Of a stretch of 64,000 nucleotides of DNA, positions 6,047-45,752 are shown in pieces. Every line of letters starts with the position of its first letter. Position 1 is the stretch's first letter. A program made the position numbers and the translations under genes. Where the stretch lies: contig JAEACG010000007.1 of NCBI GenBank assembly GCA_016401345.1, positions 1,147 to 65,146 on the forward strand. Reading direction: 5' to 3'. Under the pieces are notes generated by a model. That model had not been told where the DNA came from, did no database searches, and was given only the letters and a program-made list of their open reading frames with translations. This DNA comes from Fictibacillus nanhaiensis (GTDB taxonomy: Bacteria > Bacillota > Bacilli > Bacillales > Fictibacillaceae).

Positions 6047-6172
6047 ACTCGAGGATAAACTGCATAAACTTTTGGATTCAGGACCAAAACTCGAGGATAA
6101 ACTGCATAAACTTTTGGATTCAGAATCAAAACTCGTGGATTAATCCCTTAAACTCCTGAATTCGTTCATCCA
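6047..6172. repeat. Intergenic tandem array, six degenerate 21-bp units
   Basis: Six 21-base units begin at 6047, 6068, 6089, 6110, 6131 and 6152, each starting ACT with a GGAT or GAAT near position 7. Units 1 and 3 are identical and units 2 and 4 nearly so, giving an obvious 42-base higher-order repeat; units 5 and 6 are diverged. It lies between the convergent ctaB and MFS genes. Confidence 0.8.
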
Positions 6173-32380: not shown

Positions 32381-32411
32381 AAAAAAAAGGAACTCCCCAA
32401 AAGGAAGTTCC
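32381..32411 (-). terminator. Terminator of the giant repeat-protein gene
   Basis: GGAACT / AGTTCC hairpin with a loop of about 11 bases and eight T residues on the minus strand, 43 bases after the stop. Confidence 0.8.
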
Positions 32412-32453
32412 CTACTAAAACAATTTCATGTTGATAACTTACTTTATATTATC

Positions 32454-35400
32454 TCAATCGATAAATCGGATTAAATCAATACAAGAAAGGTCAAAAGTGA
32501 TAAACCTTCTGATAGTTCCTTCTGGTACCTCTGCCTCATAAGAAAATGTAGCACAATTATTGTTTGAATCTATACGCTCTAAAGTAAATAGAGTTGGTGA
32601 TGTTAAGCTGTCTAAAGATAACGGTTTACCTCCGATTAAAATTAAGAATTGTGCTTCACCAAACGGAGGAAGCGGATTCGGAGTAGTTGAAATAAGTGAA
32701 ATTGGAATAAGCAGTTCTTCCCCCTCTCGCACACTTACAGCCACCGAAAACGGTTCAAACCCGTTTGCAACAACACGCAGTTCATAAGAGCCAGAAGGAA
32801 TGCCTGTTATTGAAAATACTCCTGCATCATTAGAGATTACTTCCCTAACCAAAACCCCTCTTAGATCAAACAACTGGATGACCGCTCCACTAACTGGCCG
32901 ACCTGTTCGACGATCAGATACTTGACCCGAAATATCTCCATCCGCTCCAGGACTTAAAGCAAAGTCAACACCTGTTAAACGCTCTCCCTCTGCAAGGGAA
33001 ATAATAAGTGTTTCTTGCTGAAACCCTTGGGCATCCACTGTTATTACATATCTTCCTGATCCAAGATTACTTATGAAATACGTTCCATCATTACCCGTTC
33101 TCGCACTTCCTGCAAGAGCACCATTTTCATCAAATACATTTATTTCAGCATTTGGTAATGGTCCATTTCCTAAAATGATGACTGTACCCGTTAATGAAGA
33201 AGCTTGACGTTGACCAGGTAATGCAAAATTCTGCTCAACAGTTGTATTAACAGGCAATACCGATAGTCTGCTATCTGTACCATATCCTAATGCAGATGCT
33301 CGTAACGTATAAGAGCCATTACTCAATCCAGGAATCGTGTAAAAACCGTCGATGTTTGTTAAGGCTACCGCTACCGGGCGTCCATTAACTGCTAAAGCAT
33401 TAACTTCAGCATTTAGTAAACTTCCTTCAACTGGACCGCTTATTTGATCAAATGTTTCTACAATCGCCCCTACAATCGGCTGTCCTGTACCTGCATCCGT
33501 AACAAAGCCGGTAAACAAACTTGGGACTGCAACTAAATTAAAGTTCACAACGCTTTGAACATTGGGAACAGCGGTAAAATCCAGTACGCTGCTTCTATAA
33601 TCTGCATTGATGGCAGCAAGGCTAAAATCACCTGGTAGAAGACCTTCTATTAAATAATTTCCATCATTGTCTGTCTGTACCTCTGCAATCACAACACCGT
33701 TATTGTCCGCTAAACGAAGCAAGGTATTAACGAGAGGCTGTGAATCGCCAGCATTTCGAACCGTTCCTCTAACACTTGAAGTAACAGCTGCCAATTGAAG
33801 ATCTGCGAAAGTCGTGTCTCCAGGTATAACCGCAATTTCAGCAGAGTCGTTTCCAAACCCTTGTTTAGTAGAAATAATCGTGTAGTTTCCGTTTCTCACT
33901 TGGCTAAAACGATATCTACCTTGTTCGTCAGTAAGCGTTGAGGCAACGACTGGACCTGACGGACTTATTAAACGAAGTTCAACACTAGCTCTAGCTATAA
34001 AAGAACCTGACCCTTCATTTGTAACGAAACCTTCTACACTGCCCGGTTCAAAAGCTAATGGTAAATTCGTAATCGTAGTCTCATTCGCTACAATAAAAAC
34101 ACTTAGTGAACGCTGTTCAAAACCGCGTGCACTCACGATCATTGTATAAATCCCAGGCCGCAAGTCCAAAACACTATAAGCACCATCTGACTGCGTTAGA
34201 ACAGTGGTAACAACAGCTCGAGTGGCATCCAGGATTTGCACCACTGCCCCAGCAATTGAAACACCATTGAAATCGGAGATCGTTCCTAATAGTTTACCTG
34301 TATCCAAAGTAAGAGCCAGAGTGACCTCTGTAGTGGTACCATTCACAATAATTCCGCCTTGTGAAAGACTTCCATAGCCCCCCTTGATAGTTGAAATAAC
34401 TATCGTGCCTTCTTCCAAGTTCTGCTGAATAAATACACCATTTTGGTCAGTTATACCCGAAGTAATAGTTATACCTGTTTCGTTAAAAATGTTCGTTATA
34501 ACTCCTGATATCGGATTGTTAGTTGCAGCATCAATGACCCTAATCGTAACCGTACCTCCAAGAGTAATAAGTTGGAGATCAAGAGAAACCTCTTCTCCTC
34601 CATTAATTGTTACAGCAAAAGTAGCTGCATTATAACCTTCAGCTGTAACAGTAACAAGATAATTACCTTCAGGAACTTCTGGAATAACATAGGTTCCGTT
34701 TGATTGTGCTAGTACGGTAGTTACTAAACTGTTATTGAGATCAAAAAGATTAATTTTAATACTTTGTTGAGTGATGAGATTTCCATCTTCATCTGTAACC
34801 GTTCCAAAAATACTGCCATAAAGACTTGATAAAAATAGATTCGTAGTTGTTACTATGTTACTGCTCACAACTGCTCCAATTGACGATACAGCGTACCCTG
34901 AGAGATTTGCAGTCACTTGGTAAGAGTTTGGCTTCAAACTTCTAAAGGTAAAGCTTCCATTCTGTTCAGTAACGGTAGATGCGATAATAATATTGTTTAA
35001 CAGGACGTTCATTACAACCCCTGGTAAACTAATTCCACTTTCATCAGTAACGATTCCTGTTATAGCTCCAGGTTCAGGGATCAGATTTATTGAAACGTTT
35101 AGTGTCTCCCCTGGTGTAATGGTTATCCCTTCTGTTTCACTTTGGAAGTCAAGTGCCACAATCGTTAAGGCATATGTTCCAACAGGTAGATTTCCAATAA
35201 AGAACGTCCCATCATCATTTGAGACAGCAAATCCGACAACCGTTCCATTCACATCGATAACCTTAATACTTGCTCCACCTATTACACCATTTGGACCATT
35301 AACTGTACCTGTTAATACCCCTGGATTAGATAGTAAGAAGCCATCAACTGTAGTTGTTTCATTCGCTTGAATCGTTGCTCCAGCTGAAAACGTATTATAG

Positions 35401-38400
35401 TTAGGTGTTGTCATGGATACGGTATATTGCCCTGGAGAAAGTCCGTTAATCACATACACACCTGCATTATTTGTAACTGCTCTGCCAGCAGGCTGAACAC
35501 TCGTTCCAAAAAACAACTGAACGATCGCTCCAACGTTCAATATACCTGTTTCTTGATCTATTATTGTTCCAGTTAGAATTCCTGGAAGTGCAGTGAGCTC
35601 AATATCAACAATTTGTGTTTGACCAGGATCCACCGAAAAGCCAACTGTATTCGTTTCATAATCCGGATTAGAAGTTCCTAACGAATAGATGCCTGATACA
35701 AAATTCTCGATTAAATACATTCCTTGATCATCTGTTTGAACTTCTGCTAGTTCTGCACCCGTTTCATCAATTAATCTAATAACCGTATTGATAAGTGGAA
35801 TGACAACGTCTTGAGCCGATATAGTAGTTGACAAACTCTCATTTTGAATGATCCTTGCAGAAATGGTGCCTCGAACATTCGAGAGACTTGGTGTAAGAGC
35901 AAAGTTCTGAAATGTTGTTAAGCCATTTTCAATAAGAACAGAGCCTGTCACGGTTCCAAAATTTTCTTTTGTAATGGTTAAAGTGAAAGTTCCTACTGTT
36001 ATTAATCCAGAGCTATAATTACCATTACTATCTGTTAAAAGCGTATTGATTACAGGACCGAATGGTGAAATTGCCCTAATCTCAATAGAAGCTCCAATTA
36101 ATGGATCACCTGTTGCTGAATTTGTAACGTTACCTGAGATGATTCCACCTTCTGGAATAAGGATAATGTCCACAACAGTTTCTTGGTCGGGTAAAACAAC
36201 ACCACTGCCAATTCCTATTCCCGTTCCATTTCCTTTAGCAGTTACCGTATACTGGCCTTCAACCAAATTATCAACCTCGTAAGAGCCATTTCCATTCGTA
36301 ATAACCGTTGAAATGGGTGTGTTTTTTCGATCTAATATCTGAACGGTGGTATTGCCAATCGGTGTACCATTGGGATTTTTTATCGTTCCAATGATTGTGC
36401 CAGGATCCGGCTGCAGGTTAAGGGTTACATTTGATAGAGACAAAGAATTGATTATGACTCCAATGGACGCTGCACCATATCCATTTGCTATTGCACGAAT
36501 GTTTAGTGGACCAGTTTGGAGGTTACCTAGTCTAAAAAATCCGTTCTGGTCTGTTGTAATCGTTGCAACAAGAATGCCACTCACATCAGATACTTCAATG
36601 AAACTTCCTGATATCGGTAAACCTGTTACAACATCTTGAATAACGCCCTCCAAAGCACCACGATCTTCTGTAAGCGGGACTAATAGATTTGTTGTTTCCC
36701 CGTTCACTACGCTTGCACCTATTGTTGCTGTTTGATATCCGTCTGCTATTACGTTCACTTGATACGTTCCTGCTGATAAGTTCTGGAATGCAAAGCTTCC
36801 ATCTGAGAGAGCGATCAGCGTCTGTAGCAATACACCACCATCATTGAGAAGTCGAATAGAGATTGTTCTATCTGAAATCGGATTTCCCGATTGATCAGTA
36901 ACAGTTCCAGCAATCGATCCTCCTACTTCCGACAATTCAAAAGATACCGCAGAAGTTTGATTCGGTAGTACAATAACTCCGATTTGATCCTGTATATAAT
37001 AAGGTGAACTTGCAATAACGGTATACGTTCCAGGTGACAGAAGGATGGATGTAAAACTACCCGCAGTGTCTGAATTGGTTGATATAATTGGAATTCCTTC
37101 AGGTGTAAGAATAGAAATGAGGATGCCTGGTAATCCTTCTCCCGTTTCTGCACTTACTATTGTCCCAAAGATCAATCCTCCTACCGGGGTTAAGATCACA
37201 TTTAGACCCGTCAGCTGCTCTCCCGGCTGCAACGAAACTCCGGCAGTCGATGATGAATAATTTTCTACTCCAGCAATTACTGTATAAGACCCTTCTGGCA
37301 AGTTTCCGATAACATAGTTTCCTTCAAAATCTGTGATTCCGTTTCCAATTTCACTATCATTTTCATCAACCACTCTTACACTAGCATTCGATAAAGGTAT
37401 TCCATTACCATCAGTTACTGTTCCTGAAATCGATGCTGGATCAGGCACTAAAGCGACCTGTACATTAGTTGTAGCATTCGAAGTTACGATTACACCTGTA
37501 GAGCGAATACTATAGTTTAGCTGAAAAGCGTTTACCGTATATGATCTTGGTGCCACGCCTTCTATTAAGAAGTCCCCTGCTGCACCTGTCGTTCTTCTTG
37601 CTATTGGTGTAACACCACTTGGTGCATACACTTCTACCTGTGCACCAACGAGTGGAGCAAGAGTTTGTTCATCGAGAATCACCCCTGAAATTTGACCCGG
37701 TTCTGGAACTAAGCTGATATTAGCTGTTAGTGTCTCGCCTGGTCCGGCATTAATCGAAACTTGCCGTCTCTGGTAATCAGGGATAATAGCAGTAACTAGA
37801 TATTGTCCTTCCGTAAAACCTAGTATTCTATAAAATCCGTTAGAGTCGGTGTTAACAACTCGAACAGTAAAACCGTACACATCTAAAAGCCTTACTGAAA
37901 CATTAACTAACAGATCACCAGAATCTGAAGTGATCGTACCTTCAACTGTAGCTGGGAACGGTTCAAGTGCAAAATCAACGACTCTCGTATCGTTTGGAGG
38001 TACAAAAACTGAGGCACTCGATGATCCATAGCCGTCGTCAGTAAAAGCAACTATAGTATATGGGCCAGAATACACACCTTGCGTTACATAATTGCCTTGC
38101 TGATCCGTTACAGTATTCGCAATAACGGGGCCAGTTGGTGATAAATAACGGACTTGAACCATGACTTGAGAAATCGGAAGCCCTGTTACAGCGTCTGTGA
38201 TGGTTCCCGAAACAGTCCCAGGTTCAGGAGTTAAAATAAAGCTCAAGGAAGTTGTTTCATCAGGTAAAACGGTAAAGGTTGCACTCTGACTCGAATAACC
38301 ATCAGCACTAACGATCGCACGATACGTGTCAGGTGACAGATCTGCAAATATAAATTGACCGAAACTATCCGAGACTCCTTTTCGATCTAGTGGCTTTCCT

Positions 38401-41400
38401 GAAGATGAAACGATAATGATGGCATTAGATAATGGATCTCCTGTTAACTGATTTGTGACATACCCTGTAACCGCTCCTGGGTTTTGAGTTAATGAAATCG
38501 CAATGTTAAACCCAGTGATCGGCACAGTAACCGTAATAATCTCATTTCCATAATTCACTGCATTAACATTTAACAGATAATTTCCCGGTGCAATCGAGTC
38601 GAACGTGAAAGTGCCATCGATACCTGGATACTGCTTTGCCACAAACATGCCTGTATTATTTGTTAAAGTAACAGAAACGGCAGTACCACTGATCGGATTT
38701 CCAGTTGCAGAATCTGCTATCGATCCTGTTAGTGTTGTAAGAATTTGCGATAATGGTATTGTAGTAATGCTTACTGCACTGCTATTAACGATAACTGCTG
38801 TCATATTTGGAGAATAACCGTCTAATTCTGCACTTACAAAATATGTGCCAATCGACAGTTCAGGAATTTGAAACGTACCATCAGTGTGTGCAATTAAAGC
38901 TTGCAGCAATTCACCGCTAGCTCCAAACAATTTTAATTGAATATTGTCTCCAGACAGCGGATTCCCATCTTCGTCAGTCACTTGCCCTGAAATGCTTCCT
39001 ACAGTACTTGTTAATCGAATATCAGCTCCCGCAGTCTCATCACTTTGGACGATCACACCTGTAATTTCTGTAGAGTAGTTTTGTGCAGATGAAGTAACAG
39101 CATAGGAACCAGGAACAAAATTCCGGAGTAAAAAGTTACCGAATTGATCAGTTGTTGAAAAACGAACCAAAATTCCAAGACTATCACGCACAAGTATGGC
39201 CGCACCTGGAATTGGTGCACCTGTTATTAAATCTGAAACCGTTCCAGAGATAGAACCACGGATCGTCACTAACTCAAAATTCAGCGCAGTGATGTCCTGA
39301 CCTGGGGCGACCGCAACGTTCCCAGTCGCGTTTGCATAGCCCCCTGCTCGTATGACGACTGCATAAGAACCTGCGGGAATATTGCTGAGCGTGTAATTTC
39401 CATCAGCATCAGTTGTTCCATTTCCAATAGGTGTTTCATTTACATCGAGAAGAGAAACGGTACCGTTAGCTACCGGCGTACCAAGATCAGAAATTAACGT
39501 ACCTGAAACAGTTCCAGGATTCGGTTGGATCGATAAAGAGATGTTCGTTGTTTGACCAGAAACCACAAAGGCTCCCGTACTTCCAACTGAATAATTTAGT
39601 GCAACAGCTTTTACAATATAGTTACCCGGAGCCAAACTCTGAAACAAAAAGTTTCCTTCCGGAGTAGCTGCAACTGTGTTTACGAACTGGTTATCCATTG
39701 TGTACAGCTGAAGCACAAGTCCTTCAGCGGCAGGAGCTACTATTCCTGTAATAGTCCCAGGATTAGGTTGAAGTTCAAAGTCAACAAACTTAGTTAATCC
39801 AGCGGGAACAACTACACCTATAATCCTAGTTTCATATCCTTCTGCAACTGCAGTAAGTGAATAAACTCCTCCAGGCAATCCAAGCGAAATGAACGTTCCA
39901 TCCGCACTCGTTAAGGCTGAATCAACAAATGCTCCTAGTGTGTTGCTGATATTAATAGTTGCACCAACTACCGGCTGACCTGAAAGAGAATCGATTAATC
40001 TGCCCGTAACAAACCCCGGAGACGGAACAAGGCTAATCGTGATAGAAGAAACGTTTCCAGGTGATAACGTAACTGATGCAGAGGAAGTTTGGAAACTTTC
40101 TGCAGCAACGATGACTGTATATGTGCTCGGCATTAAATCTTCAACTATGAACACACCATCATTGTCTGAAAAAGTTGTATTTATGATAAGACCGTTAGCA
40201 TCCAGCAGCTGCACTTCTACGGATGCACCTGCAAGAGGATCTCCAGTCTCACTATTAATAACCGTTCCCGAGATAGAAGAAGGATTTGGCATTAATGAGA
40301 AATTAACAACAGAAGTCACACCAGCTGTAATGATTGCTCCACTTAAGTTTGTTTGATAATCAATAATATTTGCTGTAACAACATAGCTTCCAGGGAGCAA
40401 TTCACCAATCACATAATTTCCATTTGTATCTGTTACAACTCTAGAGATAAGCACATCAGAATCTGCATTTTTCACAAGTATGACTGCACCCGGAAGAATG
40501 TTTCCTTCGTTATCAAGTACATTTCCTGCAAGCAAACCAAAAATAGGCTGAAGTTCTGTGCTGATCGTTGTTGTTTCATTATCCTGAATAACAGCACCAA
40601 GCGTAACCGGTGAAAACCCGTCTGCTCCAACAATAACGGTATATCGATCTGGTGCTAACCCACTTATCGTATAATTTCCATTGCTGTCAGTAATGGTCTT
40701 CGCTACCACGATGTTATTGAGAACGACATCCACTGAAGCACCACTAATTGTACTTCCACCTGAAGAAACATCACCTGTTAGAACACCTGCTAGTCTTCTA
40801 AGTGTGACATCTACCGTTGTAGTTTGATCAGACTGAACATACGTACCGATCGTTTTTGTACCATGACCATCAGAAGAAAAGGTGATTACATACGTACCGG
40901 GAGCTAGAGAATCTACTGAGAATTGTCCGTTTACATCAGTTGTTACAGAGGCATCCGTAATTCCAGAGCTGTTTACAACTTTTAGACTTGCACCTGGAAG
41001 TGGAACACCGCTATCTTCATCAATGACTGTTCCGATGATTGAACCTGGATTTGCTAATAGATTCACATCTACTACCACAGTTTGACCGGCACTCACCGAG
41101 AAACCGACAACAAATGTTTGAAAAGCAGGTGCACTCACGCGTATTCTGTAAGAACCTGGTGCAAGACGATTTATTGTGTACTGTCCTGCCCCATTCGTCG
41201 TTGCGATTGCCACGGCGATCCCTGTACCGCTAAGAGCTTCAACTATTGCACCAGCTATAGGTCCTCCACTTCCTGTTATCGATCCACTTACCGTTCCAGG
41301 ATTCGGCTGCAGTACAAAGTTTGCTATCGTTGTCTGATTAGATGGCACATTTTGCCCAATTGTTGCAGCCTGAAAATTATTAGCAGAGACCGTGAGTGTA

Positions 41401-42866
41401 TAATGTCCTGGGATTACAGCTCCAAATGTGTAAGCTCCTGTTGGAGAAGTTGTTACACTTGCAATAACTGTACCAAGGTTATCTGATAACAAGACGGTCG
41501 CTCCACTAACAGCAGAACCTGCGTTTGAGGTAACCGTTCCTTGAAGAATTCCTGGAATAGCTACAAGGACAGGATTGATGACCGTTATCGTGCCAGATTG
41601 AATAACCACCGATTGCGCCAAGGTCGTGTAATTTGCTTTTGAGAATTCAATCGTATAAGTACCTGGTGCTATATTCGTAAGACTATACTTTCCGAATAGA
41701 TCTGTTTGCGTAACGGTCACTTGTGTTTGACCCATTAAAAGTCTTACAGTTGCAGCATTTACTGGCTGAGCGTTTGAACTATCCAGTAACGTACCTGCAG
41801 CTCCACCTGTTGCTTGAACATTTACGGAAATAGAGGCAGAAGCAGGGGGCAGATCTCCTCCAGTAAAGCTATCTATACCTGTTGCCCTTACTGTATTAAG
41901 TGCTTTCGTTCCTGCTGTATAAAAGATTCCATTCTGTGCAAACTGAAGAGTCGCACTAGCGCCAGGAGCGATATTACCAACGGACCACGTAAGTGTTTTC
42001 GTTGAAGAGTTGTATGCTGTTGTCCCTTGCGAAACACTAAGAACTGAAAAGAGTGACACTACATCTAATGAAACAATATCAGTTACATTAATGATATTTG
42101 CAGCACTTTTTCCTGTATTCGTTAAGGTAATTCTTCCCGTCCACTCCCCAACCTGACCGGCTAAAGGTGATTGTGGTCCTGAAAGCAGTACTTTTGAAAC
42201 CTGCAGGTTAGCTCGGACATTACCGGAATTTATTGTAACTGGATTGGAAAGTGCATTTTGAAATTGAAATTCCTCTGATTCACGTAAAGAGTCTTTATTG
42301 TAGTTGTTGTTATTTGAAGCAGTAAAAGCGACCATCCGTACAGAACTTAGAGCAGTAATACCGAGCAAGGAGAAAAATGTAGAAGCTGGAACTAGAAAAT
42401 CGATAAAATAGTTTTGTGTATTATCCAATGTAGAGTCAGCCTGAACGACCCGTGCGACGTCAAAATTGATGATGGACCGAGAATAGTTTGGATTCCCTTT
42501 ACCATCCGTCCCTTCAGCAGGATCACTCCAAGAGTTCACTTGTTTAGTTGTGTTCTGAACCAAATTCACTCTTTTATTTAAACCATTAACTGCAAGAAGC
42601 CAGTCATAAGTCCCCGCTACGCCGGTCGTATTTAACAAAACACCCCATGCAAAGTTTGCAAAAGCGGTTTTGGCGCTATTTCTTGGATCTGATCGTACAC
42701 GCATTCTAAAGTACACATTGATTTCATCATAAGCGAAGTAAAAGGAAGGAAAACTGGCACTCCCTACGATGTCTGTTCCTGCAGGAGAGATATCACGTAT
42801 CACATCTGCATAAGGAACACCGCCTACAGTAATGGCAGTAAACTGACTATTTGTGGGAAAAGACAT
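32454..42866 (-). CDS. Giant protein of 35 carboxypeptidase-regulatory-like repeats
   Basis: A 3,470-residue protein. Residues 1-220 are an unrecognised beta-rich domain beginning SFPTNSQFTAITVGGVPYAD; 225-350 resemble a DUF11-type domain (ANLQVSKVLLSG, LTNTGKSAANI, WSVGNIAPGASATLQF). About 351-3390 hold 35 repeats of about 85 residues, each G-T-V followed by G-x-P-x-x-G-A, T-D-x-x-G-x-Y/F, L-x-P-G-x-Y-x-V and a closing N-P-G, the CarboxypepD_reg/CnaB-like beta-sandwich. Repeats recur with a period of eight. The last 60 residues (FTLERIDSNNNCATFSYEAE, then RRFITFDLSCIDLIRFID) resemble the C-terminus of CotY/CotZ-type coat proteins. No signal peptide, LPXTG or SLH domain. GGAGGTG precedes ATG. 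A spore-surface filament is inferred. Confidence 0.85.
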   Translation of the reverse strand: MSFPTNSQFTAITVGGVPYADVIRDISPAGTDIVGSASFPSFYFAYDEINVYFRMRVRSDPRNSAKTAFANFAWGVLLNTTGVAGTYDWLLAVNGLNKRVNLVQNTTKQVNSWSDPAEGTDGKGNPNYSRSIINFDVARVVQADSTLDNTQNYFIDFLVPASTFFSLLGITALSSVRMVAFTASNNNNYNKDSLRESEEFQFQNALSNPVTINSGNVRANLQVSKVLLSGPQSPLAGQVGEWTGRITLTNTGKSAANIINVTDIVSLDVVSLFSVLSVSQGTTAYNSSTKTLTWSVGNIAPGASATLQFAQNGIFYTAGTKALNTVRATGIDSFTGGDLPPASASISVNVQATGGAAGTLLDSSNAQPVNAATVRLLMGQTQVTVTQTDLFGKYSLTNIAPGTYTIEFSKANYTTLAQSVVIQSGTITVINPVLVAIPGILQGTVTSNAGSAVSGATVLLSDNLGTVIASVTTSPTGAYTFGAVIPGHYTLTVSANNFQAATIGQNVPSNQTTIANFVLQPNPGTVSGSITGSGGPIAGAIVEALSGTGIAVAIATTNGAGQYTINRLAPGSYRIRVSAPAFQTFVVGFSVSAGQTVVVDVNLLANPGSIIGTVIDEDSGVPLPGASLKVVNSSGITDASVTTDVNGQFSVDSLAPGTYVITFSSDGHGTKTIGTYVQSDQTTTVDVTLRRLAGVLTGDVSSGGSTISGASVDVVLNNIVVAKTITDSNGNYTISGLAPDRYTVIVGADGFSPVTLGAVIQDNETTTISTELQPIFGLLAGNVLDNEGNILPGAVILVKNADSDVLISRVVTDTNGNYVIGELLPGSYVVTANIIDYQTNLSGAIITAGVTSVVNFSLMPNPSSISGTVINSETGDPLAGASVEVQLLDANGLIINTTFSDNDGVFIVEDLMPSTYTVIVAAESFQTSSASVTLSPGNVSSITISLVPSPGFVTGRLIDSLSGQPVVGATINISNTLGAFVDSALTSADGTFISLGLPGGVYSLTAVAEGYETRIIGVVVPAGLTKFVDFELQPNPGTITGIVAPAAEGLVLQLYTMDNQFVNTVAATPEGNFLFQSLAPGNYIVKAVALNYSVGSTGAFVVSGQTTNISLSIQPNPGTVSGTLISDLGTPVANGTVSLLDVNETPIGNGTTDADGNYTLSNIPAGSYAVVIRAGGYANATGNVAVAPGQDITALNFELVTIRGSISGTVSDLITGAPIPGAAILVRDSLGILVRFSTTDQFGNFLLRNFVPGSYAVTSSAQNYSTEITGVIVQSDETAGADIRLTSTVGSISGQVTDEDGNPLSGDNIQLKLFGASGELLQALIAHTDGTFQIPELSIGTYFVSAELDGYSPNMTAVIVNSSAVSITTIPLSQILTTLTGSIADSATGNPISGTAVSVTLTNNTGMFVAKQYPGIDGTFTFDSIAPGNYLLNVNAVNYGNEIITVTVPITGFNIAISLTQNPGAVTGYVTNQLTGDPLSNAIIIVSSSGKPLDRKGVSDSFGQFIFADLSPDTYRAIVSADGYSSQSATFTVLPDETTSLSFILTPEPGTVSGTITDAVTGLPISQVMVQVRYLSPTGPVIANTVTDQQGNYVTQGVYSGPYTIVAFTDDGYGSSSASVFVPPNDTRVVDFALEPFPATVEGTITSDSGDLLVNVSVRLLDVYGFTVRVVNTDSNGFYRILGFTEGQYLVTAIIPDYQRRQVSINAGPGETLTANISLVPEPGQISGVILDEQTLAPLVGAQVEVYAPSGVTPIARRTTGAAGDFLIEGVAPRSYTVNAFQLNYSIRSTGVIVTSNATTNVQVALVPDPASISGTVTDGNGIPLSNASVRVVDENDSEIGNGITDFEGNYVIGNLPEGSYTVIAGVENYSSSTAGVSLQPGEQLTGLNVILTPVGGLIFGTIVSAETGEGLPGILISILTPEGIPIISTNSDTAGSFTSILLSPGTYTVIASSPYYIQDQIGVIVLPNQTSAVSFELSEVGGSIAGTVTDQSGNPISDRTISIRLLNDGGVLLQTLIALSDGSFAFQNLSAGTYQVNVIADGYQTATIGASVVNGETTNLLVPLTEDRGALEGVIQDVVTGLPISGSFIEVSDVSGILVATITTDQNGFFRLGNLQTGPLNIRAIANGYGAASIGVIINSLSLSNVTLNLQPDPGTIIGTIKNPNGTPIGNTTVQILDRKNTPISTVITNGNGSYEVDNLVEGQYTVTAKGNGTGIGIGSGVVLPDQETVVDIILIPEGGIISGNVTNSATGDPLIGASIEIRAISPFGPVINTLLTDSNGNYSSGLITVGTFTLTITKENFGTVTGSVLIENGLTTFQNFALTPSLSNVRGTISARIIQNESLSTTISAQDVVIPLINTVIRLIDETGAELAEVQTDDQGMYLIENFVSGIYSLGTSNPDYETNTVGFSVDPGQTQIVDIELTALPGILTGTIIDQETGILNVGAIVQLFFGTSVQPAGRAVTNNAGVYVINGLSPGQYTVSMTTPNYNTFSAGATIQANETTTVDGFLLSNPGVLTGTVNGPNGVIGGASIKVIDVNGTVVGFAVSNDDGTFFIGNLPVGTYALTIVALDFQSETEGITITPGETLNVSINLIPEPGAITGIVTDESGISLPGVVMNVLLNNIIIASTVTEQNGSFTFRSLKPNSYQVTANLSGYAVSSIGAVVSSNIVTTTNLFLSSLYGSIFGTVTDEDGNLITQQSIKINLFDLNNSLVTTVLAQSNGTYVIPEVPEGNYLVTVTAEGYNAATFAVTINGGEEVSLDLQLITLGGTVTIRVIDAATNNPISGVITNIFNETGITITSGITDQNGVFIQQNLEEGTIVISTIKGGYGSLSQGGIIVNGTTTEVTLALTLDTGKLLGTISDFNGVSIAGAVVQILDATRAVVTTVLTQSDGAYSVLDLRPGIYTMIVSARGFEQRSLSVFIVANETTITNLPLAFEPGSVEGFVTNEGSGSFIARASVELRLISPSGPVVASTLTDEQGRYRFSQVRNGNYTIISTKQGFGNDSAEIAVIPGDTTFADLQLAAVTSSVRGTVRNAGDSQPLVNTLLRLADNNGVVIAEVQTDNDGNYLIEGLLPGDFSLAAINADYRSSVLDFTAVPNVQSVVNFNLVAVPSLFTGFVTDAGTGQPIVGAIVETFDQISGPVEGSLLNAEVNALAVNGRPVAVALTNIDGFYTIPGLSNGSYTLRASALGYGTDSRLSVLPVNTTVEQNFALPGQRQASSLTGTVIILGNGPLPNAEINVFDENGALAGSARTGNDGTYFISNLGSGRYVITVDAQGFQQETLIISLAEGERLTGVDFALSPGADGDISGQVSDRRTGRPVSGAVIQLFDLRGVLVREVISNDAGVFSITGIPSGSYELRVVANGFEPFSVAVSVREGEELLIPISLISTTPNPLPPFGEAQFLILIGGKPLSLDSLTSPTLFTLERIDSNNNCATFSYEAEVPEGTIRRFITFDLSCIDLIRFID

Positions 42867-42960
42867 CCCAACACCTCCGGCAAAAAATTAACATCGATTT
42901 AATATACGCGGAGAAACCTTGCAATGATTACCATTTTTTTCAATAGCGTATCTTCACACG

Positions 42961-44551: not shown

Positions 44552-44612
44552 TTGGGAAAATTGATGAAAAAGATGTCACTTAATGCTACCCTCTAGCACG
44601 GAATTTTCCCAA
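44552..44612. promoter_or_regulatory. Long-spaced inverted repeat upstream of rap
   Basis: TTGGGAAAATT (44552-44562) and AATTTTCCCAA (44602-44612) are perfect inverted copies. The nine-base core TTGGGAAAA is separated from TTTTCCCAA by exactly 43 bases. The same arrangement with the same spacing is found at 63337-63397. It ends 60 bases before the rap start codon. Confidence 0.55.
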
Positions 44613-44672
44613 GTTTTATTTTTCCATTTTATGTTAGATTTAAATTACAAGTCTTATAGAAAGGAGTTTTCC

Positions 44673-45752
44673 ATGAACGTCGGAACTAGAGAGCCCATCA
44701 CACAGTCACTCGAGCGGTGGCATACAGCCATTCGGACAAATCACATACAACAATCAGAGAGTATACATAACGAGATTAAGAGTGAGATCTCACAGATCAA
44801 AGACCCGTCTACACAATTGTATTATCAATTGTTAAACAGCCGTTACTTGATCCTGAAGAAAGAGCTAACTTCTGCACACGCCATTTTAGATACGCTAAAT
44901 GATGTTCATTTAAATCGAACAGATATTTTTGGGTACTATATGAACTTAATTACCGGAATGCTATTAACAGCTGAAGGAAATTATGAAGTAGCAGAATTGC
45001 GTTTTATCAGGGCATTTAACTTATTAAATGTATTAAGCAGCATGACGGATGATATCGTGCGAGCAGACTTTTATCATAAAGCTGCTGTTCTGTATTATCA
45101 CATTCGTCAGCCACTCACTGCTCTGGATTATGCAAACGAAGCTTTGAAAACGTTATCTGAAGCGGAAGATTTCGAACTGCTTCAATCCGGTTGTGAAAAT
45201 ATTCTGGGTCTTGCTTCTCTATCTTTGAAACAATACGGGAAAGCAGAAGAACATTTTCTGTGCGCACTTGATCTCGCTAAACGCATTGATCAGTCATATA
45301 CTTCACTGATCAAATACAATATTGGTTATCTGTATGCTGAACAAAACATGTCCGAACTGGCAGTACGCTATTTGTTAGAGGTATTTGAAGAAGAAGAAGC
45401 CTTTTATAAGACACACTTCTTATTGTCTCGAGAATTCTATCGATTGAATATTGAAGAAAAAGCGATACCTTTCTACAATAAAGGAATCGAGCTCGCGAAT
45501 GAAGAATATTTGCATCACTTCAAAATTCTGAACGCCTTAAATCAGGCAACAGATATAAACGAGCTTGAACGTATTGTTAAAGAAGGAAATGACTATTTTA
45601 AACAACACGAACTCTTTGGTTTCGTAGAAGATTATGCTGGAGAACTTGCACAGGTCTTCTTCAACAAAGAGAACCACAATAAAGCTAGTTATTATTTTAA
45701 AGAGTCTTACGAAGCAAAACGCGCTTTACAAAAAAAGGAGGCACTAAAATGA
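44673..45752 (+). CDS. rap: Rap-family TPR regulator
   Basis: A 359-residue, all-helical protein with an N-terminal three-helix bundle (EPITQSLERWHTAIRTNHIQ) and repeated TPR helices (for example GLASLSLKQYGKAEEHFLCA, YNIGYLYAEQNMSELAVRYL, FFNKENHNKASYYFKESYEA). Rap proteins dephosphorylate Spo0F or block DNA binding by ComA, and are inhibited by Phr peptides. ATG 44673 follows AAAGGAG; upstream in-frame codons run through the inverted repeat. The stop overlaps the phr start (ATGA). The specific target (Spo0F, ComA or another) cannot be told. Confidence 0.88.
   Translation: MNVGTREPITQSLERWHTAIRTNHIQQSESIHNEIKSEISQIKDPSTQLYYQLLNSRYLILKKELTSAHAILDTLNDVHLNRTDIFGYYMNLITGMLLTAEGNYEVAELRFIRAFNLLNVLSSMTDDIVRADFYHKAAVLYYHIRQPLTALDYANEALKTLSEAEDFELLQSGCENILGLASLSLKQYGKAEEHFLCALDLAKRIDQSYTSLIKYNIGYLYAEQNMSELAVRYLLEVFEEEEAFYKTHFLLSREFYRLNIEEKAIPFYNKGIELANEEYLHHFKILNALNQATDINELERIVKEGNDYFKQHELFGFVEDYAGELAQVFFNKENHNKASYYFKESYEAKRALQKKEALK

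Follow-up and report, generated by a model that had tools for sequence, protein, structure and literature searches.

On its minus strand, the window (the whole stretch of 64,000 nucleotides of Fictibacillus nanhaiensis DNA analysed here) carries a gene for a protein of 3470 residues that shows no evident signal for export. This raises the question of where so large a protein is placed and what could hold it there. The original prediction described it as a fibre of the spore surface that is made in the mother cell and anchored by an ending of the CotY/CotZ/ExsY type. The following features were assigned at the locus.

32387..32413, minus strand: intrinsic-terminator-like hairpin after the giant gene (position and shape)
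32454..42866, minus strand: giant gene of 3470 aa, encoding a predicted hair protein of the spore surface (open frame; equal-length ortholog in G015)
32457..32690, minus strand: CotZ-like tail domain of aa 3393-3470, which contains C3438 and C3462 and is the predicted coat anchor (homologous to small coat-cluster proteins)
32691..41807, minus strand: chain of 35 carboxypeptidase-regulatory/transthyretin-like modules, aa 354-3392, without Cys (PF13620, 35 stretches)
41877..42173, minus strand: DUF11-like domain, aa 232-330 (PF01345, 36.3 bits, cut-off 24.6)
42234..42866, minus strand: head domain, aa 1-211, predicted distal end (conservation; model of aa 1-351)
42874..42878, minus strand: GGAGG ribosome-binding site (sequence reading)
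42900..42908, minus strand: candidate CGTATATTA element, 42 bp upstream of the giant's start

The reading frame is uninterrupted from its ATG start and is preceded by the GGAGG. An ortholog in a second genome (G015, locus L026) is also 3470 aa long and has 94% identity in the tail. The giant gene that had been predicted is therefore real. The protein consists of a conserved head of 211 aa, a DUF11-like domain, 35 carboxypeptidase-regulatory modules and a tail of 78 aa. Among all 3470 residues, C3438 and C3462 are the sole cysteines and both are located within the last 33.

The earlier claim that the protein has neither a signal peptide nor an LPXTG motif was tested by sequence reading and by hydropathy, and it held. 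No LPXTG was read in the protein, and its N-terminus has no strongly hydrophobic stretch, the best 15-residue Kyte-Doolittle mean, a crude stand-in for signal-peptide detection, being 1.29. In the 67 Bacillota frames of the relatives described below, split and truncated ones included, this proxy reached a maximum of 1.91, and 10 of the 11 non-Bacillota frames were at or above 1.89, with the remaining one at 0.19. Some relatives have called starts upstream of the probable true start, and 45 of the 67 begin about 3 aa or less from the domain. The relative L165, which is export-like in appearance, scored just 1.69. A sortase-anchored adhesin was ruled out for the giant, which is without LPXTG and without an evident signal peptide; LPxT was also found in none of 59 complete relatives. 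A collagen-like nap of the BclA type was ruled out since the GXY repeats are missing: the 25 Pfam matches listed for the giant include no collagen model, and there is no GXY run in the sequence. The Ena domain (PF13157) had no match at E<=10 in the head region or the tail, and the best Enas match in the whole genome was at E 0.26. With the Ena domain missing from the giant, an Ena-type appendage was ruled out as well.

The Pfam model CarboxypepD_reg (PF13620) matched 35 stretches of the protein, in agreement with the roughly 35 modules counted before. The HMM segmentation of the chain gave 36 segments, two of which begin just 30 aa apart and are probably one module that is split by an insertion. 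The modules had been described as beta-sandwiches, and this was borne out when residues 3300-3470 were modelled (pLDDT 90.7) and searched with Foldseek, where CnaB and the transthyretin-like folds of carboxypeptidase D were among the best of the 50 matches listed, which were to the module fold. When the chain of Fictibacillus was compared with that of Alkalihalobacillus macyae, 35 of 36 segments were collinear, so that module number and order are kept across two GTDB families. The mean mutual identity of the modules is 29%, orthologous modules pair one to one, and the giant gene showed no tandem repeat at the DNA level. For these reasons, a recent expansion by repeat copying was ruled out. Since just 17 of the 36 segments contain any lysine, it is unlikely that Lys-based isopeptide bonds run along the chain.

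The head domain is present in 23 of 299 genomes of the order, and an alignment of 11 sequences has 52 invariant columns. The structure of residues 1-351 was predicted with a pLDDT of 89.5. Foldseek with the head and DUF11 region gave diffuse matches with integrins on top and query-normalised TM values of 0.20-0.32 among the matches listed. A coat-type domain was not seen at this end in Pfam searches. Two distant relatives of the head domain, L163 and L165, have LPXTG ends and signal-peptide-like starts. Judging by the exported and LPXTG-anchored appearance of these relatives, the head as such is not specific to spores.

The motifs that had been quoted for the C-terminus were found as NCATFSYE and ITFDLSC. 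For a core shared with CotY/CotZ/ExsY, the motifs CA(T/V) and (V/F)DLxC were taken as the mark. When the tail was searched against its own genome, two Cys-rich proteins of 126 and 128 aa were found (E 2.3e-7 and 1.4e-5), and hhalign of the tails with the small Cys-rich proteins gave an E of 2.7e-17. The coat-like ending is therefore more than a chance motif. By homology, the genome carries four small CotZ-like proteins. The first Cys is shared by all 16 aligned sequences of tails and small proteins; the Cys-rich N-terminal region with its CxC is present in most of the aligned small paralogs and absent from the giant tail. The neighbours of the giant gene are comK and a GNAT gene, and the cotZ-fabI gene position is held not by the giant but by the small paralog L038:10305, which adjoins fabI. 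Among the PF10612 (CotZ) loci fetched, 12 of 25 had fabI in their flanks. A second small cotZ-like gene has a CotD gene (33.8 bits, cut-off 22) in its vicinity, together with a BMQ_0737 gene (137.6 bits, cut-off 71). The original prediction had named a C-terminus unrelated to coat proteins as the outcome that would speak against it; we observed the opposite, the tail being homologous to proteins at the cotZ-fabI position.

The relation of the tail to the curated CotY/CotZ family is remote, since PF10612 detected neither the tail nor any protein of this genome at E<=10. The bare 78-aa tail found nothing in Pfam, NCBIfam and the PDB sequences. A PDB profile search with the tail family found nothing either, and phmmer with one CotZ protein gave chance-level matches only (best E 0.25), so that no solved CotZ fold for a structural test was detected by sequence. 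An HMM iterated from the tail family reached an ExsL-like CotZ+Enas protein (L127/L088) at 1.8e-12 and the first PF10612-locus protein at 5.8e-5, and it recovered 12 of the 25 PF10612 loci before the first reversed decoy (0.12). The outcome of the direct profile comparison with CotZ by hhalign varied with the alignment used. Tails and small proteins together gave 84% in the first run and 23% in a larger rerun, above all shuffles both times (in the rerun the score was 24.7, and the highest of 100 shuffles reached 17.8). The tails alone gave 12% and 21% in the two runs and the small proteins alone 34% and 3.7%, with a rerun score of 19.35 that was not above the shuffle maximum of 19.4. The predicted ending of the CotY/CotZ/ExsY type was thus supported by the homology to the small proteins at the cotZ position and by the reach of the iterated HMM, and not by PF10612, which misses the tail in the HMM comparison that had been proposed as a check. 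Judged from its sequence, the tail is probably a diverged CotY/CotZ relative outside the curated family and without the Cys-rich N-terminal part.

The CGTATATTA element recurs unchanged in L026 and L027, and other close orthologs have a similar sequence. In one comparison, GTATA[GT]T was found upstream of both the giant and a small cotZ-like gene, which is suggestive of a common element. The exact sigma-K -10 consensus CATANNNTA was not enriched, being present in 3 of 21 upstream regions against a shuffle mean of 1.6, and 104 of 500 shuffles reached 3. The genome has sigK (370 bits). For the terminator at 32387..32413 the support is its position and shape, since terminator-like hairpins in the region are no commoner than in shuffles (6 against a mean of 7.4).

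A collection of 84,980 species was scanned for relatives, and the best 79 of 87 were retained as loci. The closest 68 of these 79 belong to Bacillota genera, except for one MAG titled Moorena; this MAG aside, we take the genera to be spore formers. After 11 non-Bacillota and 9 Bacillota loci were dropped (of the latter, 5 were open at the 3' end, 3 had frames below 1000 aa and 1 was frameless), the census comprised 59 complete giants that share the head. CotZ-like tails were found in 12 and BMQ_0737-like ends in 15 of them, and a separate BMQ_0737 gene lies next door to 3. In 29 of the 59, mostly from Paenibacillus and Brevibacillus, no coat link was found (20 Paenibacillus, 2 Cohnella and 1 Marininema with an acidic end; 5 Brevibacillus; 1 Bacillus horikoshii with a weak BMQ score, E 2.4e-4). 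The downstream DNA was shorter than 1500 bp for 9 of the 59 giants, and just L223 of these is among the 29. The 6778-aa giants L159 and L160 are without a Cys tail and have no coat gene among the neighbours listed.

The NCBIfam scan of the C-termini covered the window protein and 45 of the 59 giants, the 14 omitted being all Paenibacillus. NF052457 (BMQ_0737) was found at E<=1e-5 in 15 of these 46 C-termini. It had no match in the last 300 aa of the window protein, the genome of which has one separate BMQ_0737 copy. When nine giants were tested against the NF052457 cut-off of 71 bits, L154 reached 85 and L155 104 bits, five were under the cut-off at 54-67 bits and two were unmatched. Downstream of the giants L177, L194, L230 and L176, which are without a coat tail, a BMQ_0737 gene was found on the same strand (186-199 bits). 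A profile scan of the 2,214 frames in L166-L233 showed a BMQ_0737-type gene at four loci only and no CotZ-like gene. Relatives with the same head and chain hence end in, or adjoin, the BMQ_0737 coat domain. These ends and neighbours, as assigned by profile, lend independent support to the coat reading that had been proposed.

Taken together, the tail homology and the BMQ_0737 link of the relatives support the predicted spore-surface fibre. We consider a spore location of the protein highly probable, and it is likely that the protein is a hair made in the mother cell and docked tail-first in the outermost spore layer with its head outwards. The hair would be the single polypeptide encoded by the giant gene, synthesised late in sporulation and folded in the mother cell without export. 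The CotZ-like domain at its C-terminus would dock into the Cys-rich protein layer that lies outermost; the probable building blocks of this layer are, for this genome, the four small CotZ-like proteins. Keeping the domain core without the N-terminal CxC, the tail would insert into the lattice or cap it and would not assemble with itself, by analogy to ExsY, where the C-terminal part pairs with ExsY and not with itself (PMC9562818, available text). In the same text the C-terminal part of CotY did not pair with CotY. This counts against the hair reading, as do the miss by PF10612, the 29 giants in which no coat link was found and the lack of enrichment of the sigma-K consensus. The CotZ domain of ExsL is described to mediate integration into ExsY sheets (PMC12921279, available text). 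The 35-module chain would hold the conserved head away from the spore over roughly 0.1-0.15 micrometre when extended, estimated at about 4 nm per module, and lysis of the mother cell would expose the hair. Giants of other genera, with this head and chain, would use BMQ_0737, at the C-terminus or next door, as the anchor; BMQ_0737 is listed as one of the outermost proteins of the B. megaterium spore (PMC4656864, available text).

The coat link of the tail and of the relatives would also fit a coat or exosporium protein that, instead of pointing outwards, is laid flat or bridges coat layers as a molecular tie or ruler, and a module number that is conserved across two GTDB families is what a ruler might show. 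We regard this as unlikely, since the strong conservation of the head and the exported, wall-anchored appearance of its distant relatives L163 and L165 suit a displayed end, and the head end has no visible coat-type domain. That the protein is an adhesin of the vegetative cell surface, or a secreted one, which leaves by unconventional export and resembles coat proteins by convergence, is very unlikely. Such module chains are common in adhesins and pilins, as the Foldseek matches indicate, and the distant head relatives look exported and LPXTG-anchored. However, LPxT is missing from all 59 giants, which are mostly without a strong N-terminal hydrophobic stretch by the crude proxy. The strong homology of the tail to coat-cluster proteins, the independent appearance of a second coat domain in the relatives and the retention of close relatives from genera of known spore formers, one MAG aside, also argue against it.

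The slimmest chance is given to a spore-surface protein with a CotZ-like tail that does not dock and is held by glycosylation or other contacts. This would be in line with the weak direct profile link to CotZ in one of the two runs and with the 29 giants that came without a coat domain or coat gene, but the first Cys is invariant in the tails and the small proteins, and ExsL uses its CotZ domain for lattice integration (PMC12921279, available text).

The predicted hair, docked by its tail, invites comparison with systems already described. ExsL of the Bacillus cereus group, the L-ENA tether with a CotZ and a DUF3992/Ena domain, resembles the giant in that a CotZ-type domain is fused to a fibre-related part, and in the HMM iteration no curated relative came closer to the tail family than the ExsL-like L127/L088. 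In ExsL the CotZ domain is N-terminal and a polymeric fibre is tethered, whereas in the giant the coat domain is C-terminal, the fibre is predicted to be one polypeptide and an Ena domain is lacking. The crust and exosporium lattice proteins CotY, CotZ and ExsY, whose surface lattice is stabilised by disulfides, share a probable remote core homology with the tail, and a small paralog of the giant adjoins fabI, which is a frequent position of cotZ. The giant tail differs from them in that it is below Pfam detection, lacks the Cys-rich N-terminal region and has two Cys only. The BMQ_0737 morphogenetic spore coat family (NF052457), which forms the C-terminus or the neighbour of same-head giants elsewhere, is absent from the window protein. 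The S-, L- and F-type Ena are anchored fibres of the spore surface that carry a tip at their distal end (PMC11952670, available text). The location of Ena (DUF3992, DUF4183) is that predicted for the giant, but Ena are small-subunit polymers with collagen-like tips in Bacillus. The BclA nap consists of hairs of a single protein on the spore surface, as predicted for the giant, yet BclA combines collagen repeats with a leader at the N-terminus (PMC11952670, available text), where the giant has a predicted C-terminal anchor and a beta-sandwich rod. MSCRAMM/CnaB adhesins and LPXTG pilins contain chains of related beta-sandwich modules; unlike these, the giant is without LPXTG and an evident signal peptide.

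To our knowledge, the classes of spore-surface fibres familiar so far are small-subunit polymers or collagen-like, and in the published text available to us we found no description of a giant chain-type spore-hair protein of this kind. There is about an even chance that a widespread new class of appendages exists, with one giant polypeptide per hair, a conserved tip, no secretion machinery and exchangeable coat domains. Conceivably, its members have about 1,900 to 7,200 aa and a fixed number of transthyretin-like beads, at least in the type of the protein studied here, and their exchangeable anchors could be CotZ-like, BMQ_0737 or a separate coat protein. Such proteins may have originated from an exported adhesin that was moved inside the mother cell, the coat anchor replacing the signal peptide and the wall anchor. 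Spore-surface fibres influence the sticking, clumping and spread of spores. A giant chain with a swappable coat domain would be a simple anchoring rule that is testable. It offers a hypothesis for many proteins of Fictibacillus, Alkalihalobacillus, Rossellomorea, Priestia, Metabacillus, Halobacillus and others in which no domains but carboxypeptidase-regulatory repeats can be recognised, and it would provide natural examples of possible large-cargo display on spores.

The giant gene has an ATG start codon preceded by GGAGG and a terminator-like hairpin shortly 3' of its end, with comK downstream and a GNAT acetyltransferase gene upstream. The gene and the parts of its product are as follows.

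32454-42866, minus strand: giant gene, open frame of 3470 aa
N-terminal region of the giant: head, 211 aa
Within the giant: DUF11-like domain, 36.3 bits
Within the giant: module chain, 35 CarboxypepD_reg model matches
C-terminal region of the giant: tail, 78 aa

The 35 matches agree with the roughly 35 modules of the original prediction. No Pfam model matched the head. C3438 and C3462 are the only cysteines of the giant and both lie in the tail. The sigK gene of this genome is full-length (370 bits, cut-off 299), so the strain should sporulate; a promoter scan did not show sigma-K control, which counts against the spore-hair reading. A GTATA[GT]T element was noted at 42900-42908, upstream of the giant, and also upstream of a small cotZ-like gene (L038:10305). 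A gene for a Rap-type response-regulator phosphatase (RapH_N plus TPR; 44583-45752) is separated from the giant by the GNAT gene and a metallo-beta-lactamase-fold gene, and a short tandem repeat (42-bp unit, 2.2-2.6 copies) lies at 6047-6154.

When the bare 78-aa tail was used as a query, searches of sequence and profile libraries came back empty. Within the GTDB family it matched 14 of 34 genomes (E<=0.01), in 11 of which it lies within open frames of 2742-3517 aa; some tail-positive genomes also, or only, encode it as a small protein (frames of 123-165 aa). One genome of the family (G026) has tandem giants (L034, 5466-13682 and 13945-19479), both ending CotZ-like, and a third giant at the separate locus L031. 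The window's own genome encodes two small cysteine-rich tail relatives of 126 and 128 aa, with genes 21 kb apart, one of them directly adjoined by fabI. Also in their region are two coat genes, one of CotD type (33.8 bits against a cut-off of 22) and one of BMQ_0737 type (137.6 bits against a cut-off of 71), along with apparent sugar genes, judged from the sequence. A query alignment of tails and small proteins found two further adjacent relatives at C1:961 kb (E 6.0e-15 and 5.1e-4), giving four in this genome, and matched 25 of 397 genomes of the order. Tails and small proteins were aligned by hhalign with E 2.7e-17, and the first cysteine of the domain is invariant across 16 aligned sequences.

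In terms of sequence, tying the small proteins to CotZ is the weakest step, a point against the spore-hair reading, and it leans on gene position and on an ExsL-like bridge protein. The curated CotZ model (PF10612) has no match in the window's genome and matches 80 of 150 genomes of the order. Of 25 CotZ loci fetched, 12 have fabI in their flanking DNA (about 1.5 kb), and fabI also adjoins the small proteins in nine genomes of the window's genus. An iterated HMM search was seeded by tails and small proteins and run on 3,708 frames plus an equal number of reversed decoys. In round 4 it reached the ExsL-like protein at 1.8e-12 and the first protein of a PF10612 locus at 5.8e-5, and 12 of the 25 PF10612 loci ranked ahead of the first decoy (0.12). 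The scores of the ExsL-like protein (L127:3178-3834, in G112) are 167.7 bits for NF040827 (CotZ_rel), 48.9 bits for Enas and 34 bits for PF10612. In it a CotZ-related domain is joined to an Ena domain; an Ena gene follows downstream, and the surroundings seem rich in transposase fragments. Profile comparison is the weakest of the four ties. Tails plus small proteins scored above all shuffles against CotZ, with a probability of 84% in the first run and 23% in the second; tails alone gave 12% and 21%, and small proteins alone 34% and 3.7%, the latter with a score of 19.35 that was not above shuffles (19.4). The control families BMQ_0737 and Ena scored 11-14. On gene position, iterated search, bridge and profile comparison, we term the tail CotZ-like, a remote homologue outside the curated family. 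The predicted CotY/CotZ-type C-terminus would hold as remote homology and not as family membership.

Relatives of the head offer an independent line of evidence. In many of them the C-terminus is something other than the CotZ-like tail. When NF052457 (BMQ_0737 morphogenetic coat protein) was scanned against nine of these ends, L154 (85 bits) and L155 (104 bits) exceeded the cut-off of 71, L148, L149, L151, L153 and L161 stayed below it (54-67 bits), and L162 and L159 were missed. At E<=1e-5 the model matched 15 of 46 C-termini, namely that of the window protein and those of 45 giants out of the complete set of 59. A census of these 59 with our own profiles, the BMQ profile being built partly from such giant tails, gave 12 CotZ-like, 15 BMQ_0737-like and 32 other tails; LPxT was absent from all 59. 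Three of the 32 have a separate BMQ_0737 gene.

Metabacillus niabensis giant: BMQ_0737 gene 118 bp downstream, same strand, 186 bits
Thalassobacillus giant: BMQ_0737 gene 41 bp downstream, same strand, 199 bits
Sediminibacillus giant: BMQ_0737 gene 495 bp downstream, same strand, 189 bits

A fourth giant with an adjacent BMQ_0737 gene (L176, 191 bits) is split and stands outside the 59. On B. megaterium spores, BMQ_0737 and two CotX proteins count among the outermost proteins (PMC4656864). In all, 30 of the 59 giants have a coat domain of one of two different types, either fused or adjacent. For the remaining 29 (20 Paenibacillus, 5 Brevibacillus, 2 Cohnella, 1 Marininema and 1 Bacillus horikoshii), about half of the census, no coat link was found, which counts against the spore-hair reading. 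Scanning 2,214 frames from the 68 Bacillota-type loci with profiles brought up no more BMQ_0737- or CotZ-type genes. All the Paenibacillus, Cohnella and Marininema giants among the 29 have an acidic C-terminal end. L213, L209 and other Paenibacillus loci form a large group of giants of about 1,900 aa with the same head and a short acidic end (e.g. DEDEE). The 6778-aa giants of L158-L160 (G219 and G194, the latter labelled Metabacillus indicus) lack a cysteine tail, with no coat gene among their listed neighbours.

With the head alone as a query, 23 of 299 genomes in the order gave a match, for the most part where a long frame begins (frames reach 7162 aa), and a pattern-based scan of an 84,980-species collection yielded 87 relatives. 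Among the best 80 of the 87 (79 loci), 68 are close relatives from Bacillota genera known as spore formers, except L188, whose label of cyanobacterial MAG probably reflects mis-binning. The remaining 11 are distant MAG loci (27-36% identity), and most of these have a hydrophobic stretch at the N-terminus. Two distant relatives, L163 and L165, have signal-peptide-like starts and LPXTG ends and thus look exported and wall-anchored, so the head alone is no spore marker. One genome (G028) holds one of these two and a CotZ-tailed giant, perhaps showing the same head by two routes. In an alignment of 11 heads, taken from giants with CotZ tails, with BMQ tails and without a tail, 52 columns are invariant. 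The giants of L150, L157 and L176 lie in two frames, by sequencing error or decay.

The modules of the giant share a mean pairwise identity of 29%. When compared with the giant of Alkalihalobacillus macyae, from another GTDB family, 35 of 36 segments best matched the same chain position (mean best identity 0.53), as did 36 of 36 with F. aquaticus; with a second giant type of 27 modules, collinearity was partial. The 35-module length is therefore old and kept, as expected if reach matters. The modules have no cysteine, and lysine occurs in just 17 of 36 segments. In CnaB pilins, lysine isopeptide bonds are chained, and this scarcity speaks against the same in the giant. The predicted structure of the last module plus tail has high local confidence (pLDDT 90.7) and a pTM of 0.57, so their relative placement is loose; Foldseek returned CnaB and carboxypeptidase D folds among its best matches.

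Coat and exosporium proteins are mother-cell products that require no export. A giant with a coat domain and with neither a wall anchor nor an evident signal peptide fits this route, and we infer that it would reach the spore surface from the mother cell without export. Its tail may dock into a lattice of small CotZ-like proteins. Docking without self-assembly is predicted because the tail, like the C-terminal part of ExsY, lacks the N-terminal part, here with CxC. In PMC9562818, the 123-residue C-terminal part of ExsY pairs with full-length ExsY and not with itself, and the authors conclude that the N-terminal part is required for self-assembly. For CotY, the same assay showed no pairing of the corresponding part with CotY (PMC9562818), so the analogy does not hold throughout. 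The closest precedent for such anchoring is ExsL, which tethers L-ENA fibres and is integrated into ExsY sheets through its CotZ domain (PMC12921279). The head would be the exposed end of the hair. A literature search by titles found no description of such a giant protein, and the word carboxypeptidase is absent from the main text of the F-ENA paper (PMC11952670). Spore fibres with a coat-domain anchor are already known; a whole fibre made of one giant polypeptide with exchangeable anchors would, to our knowledge, be new.
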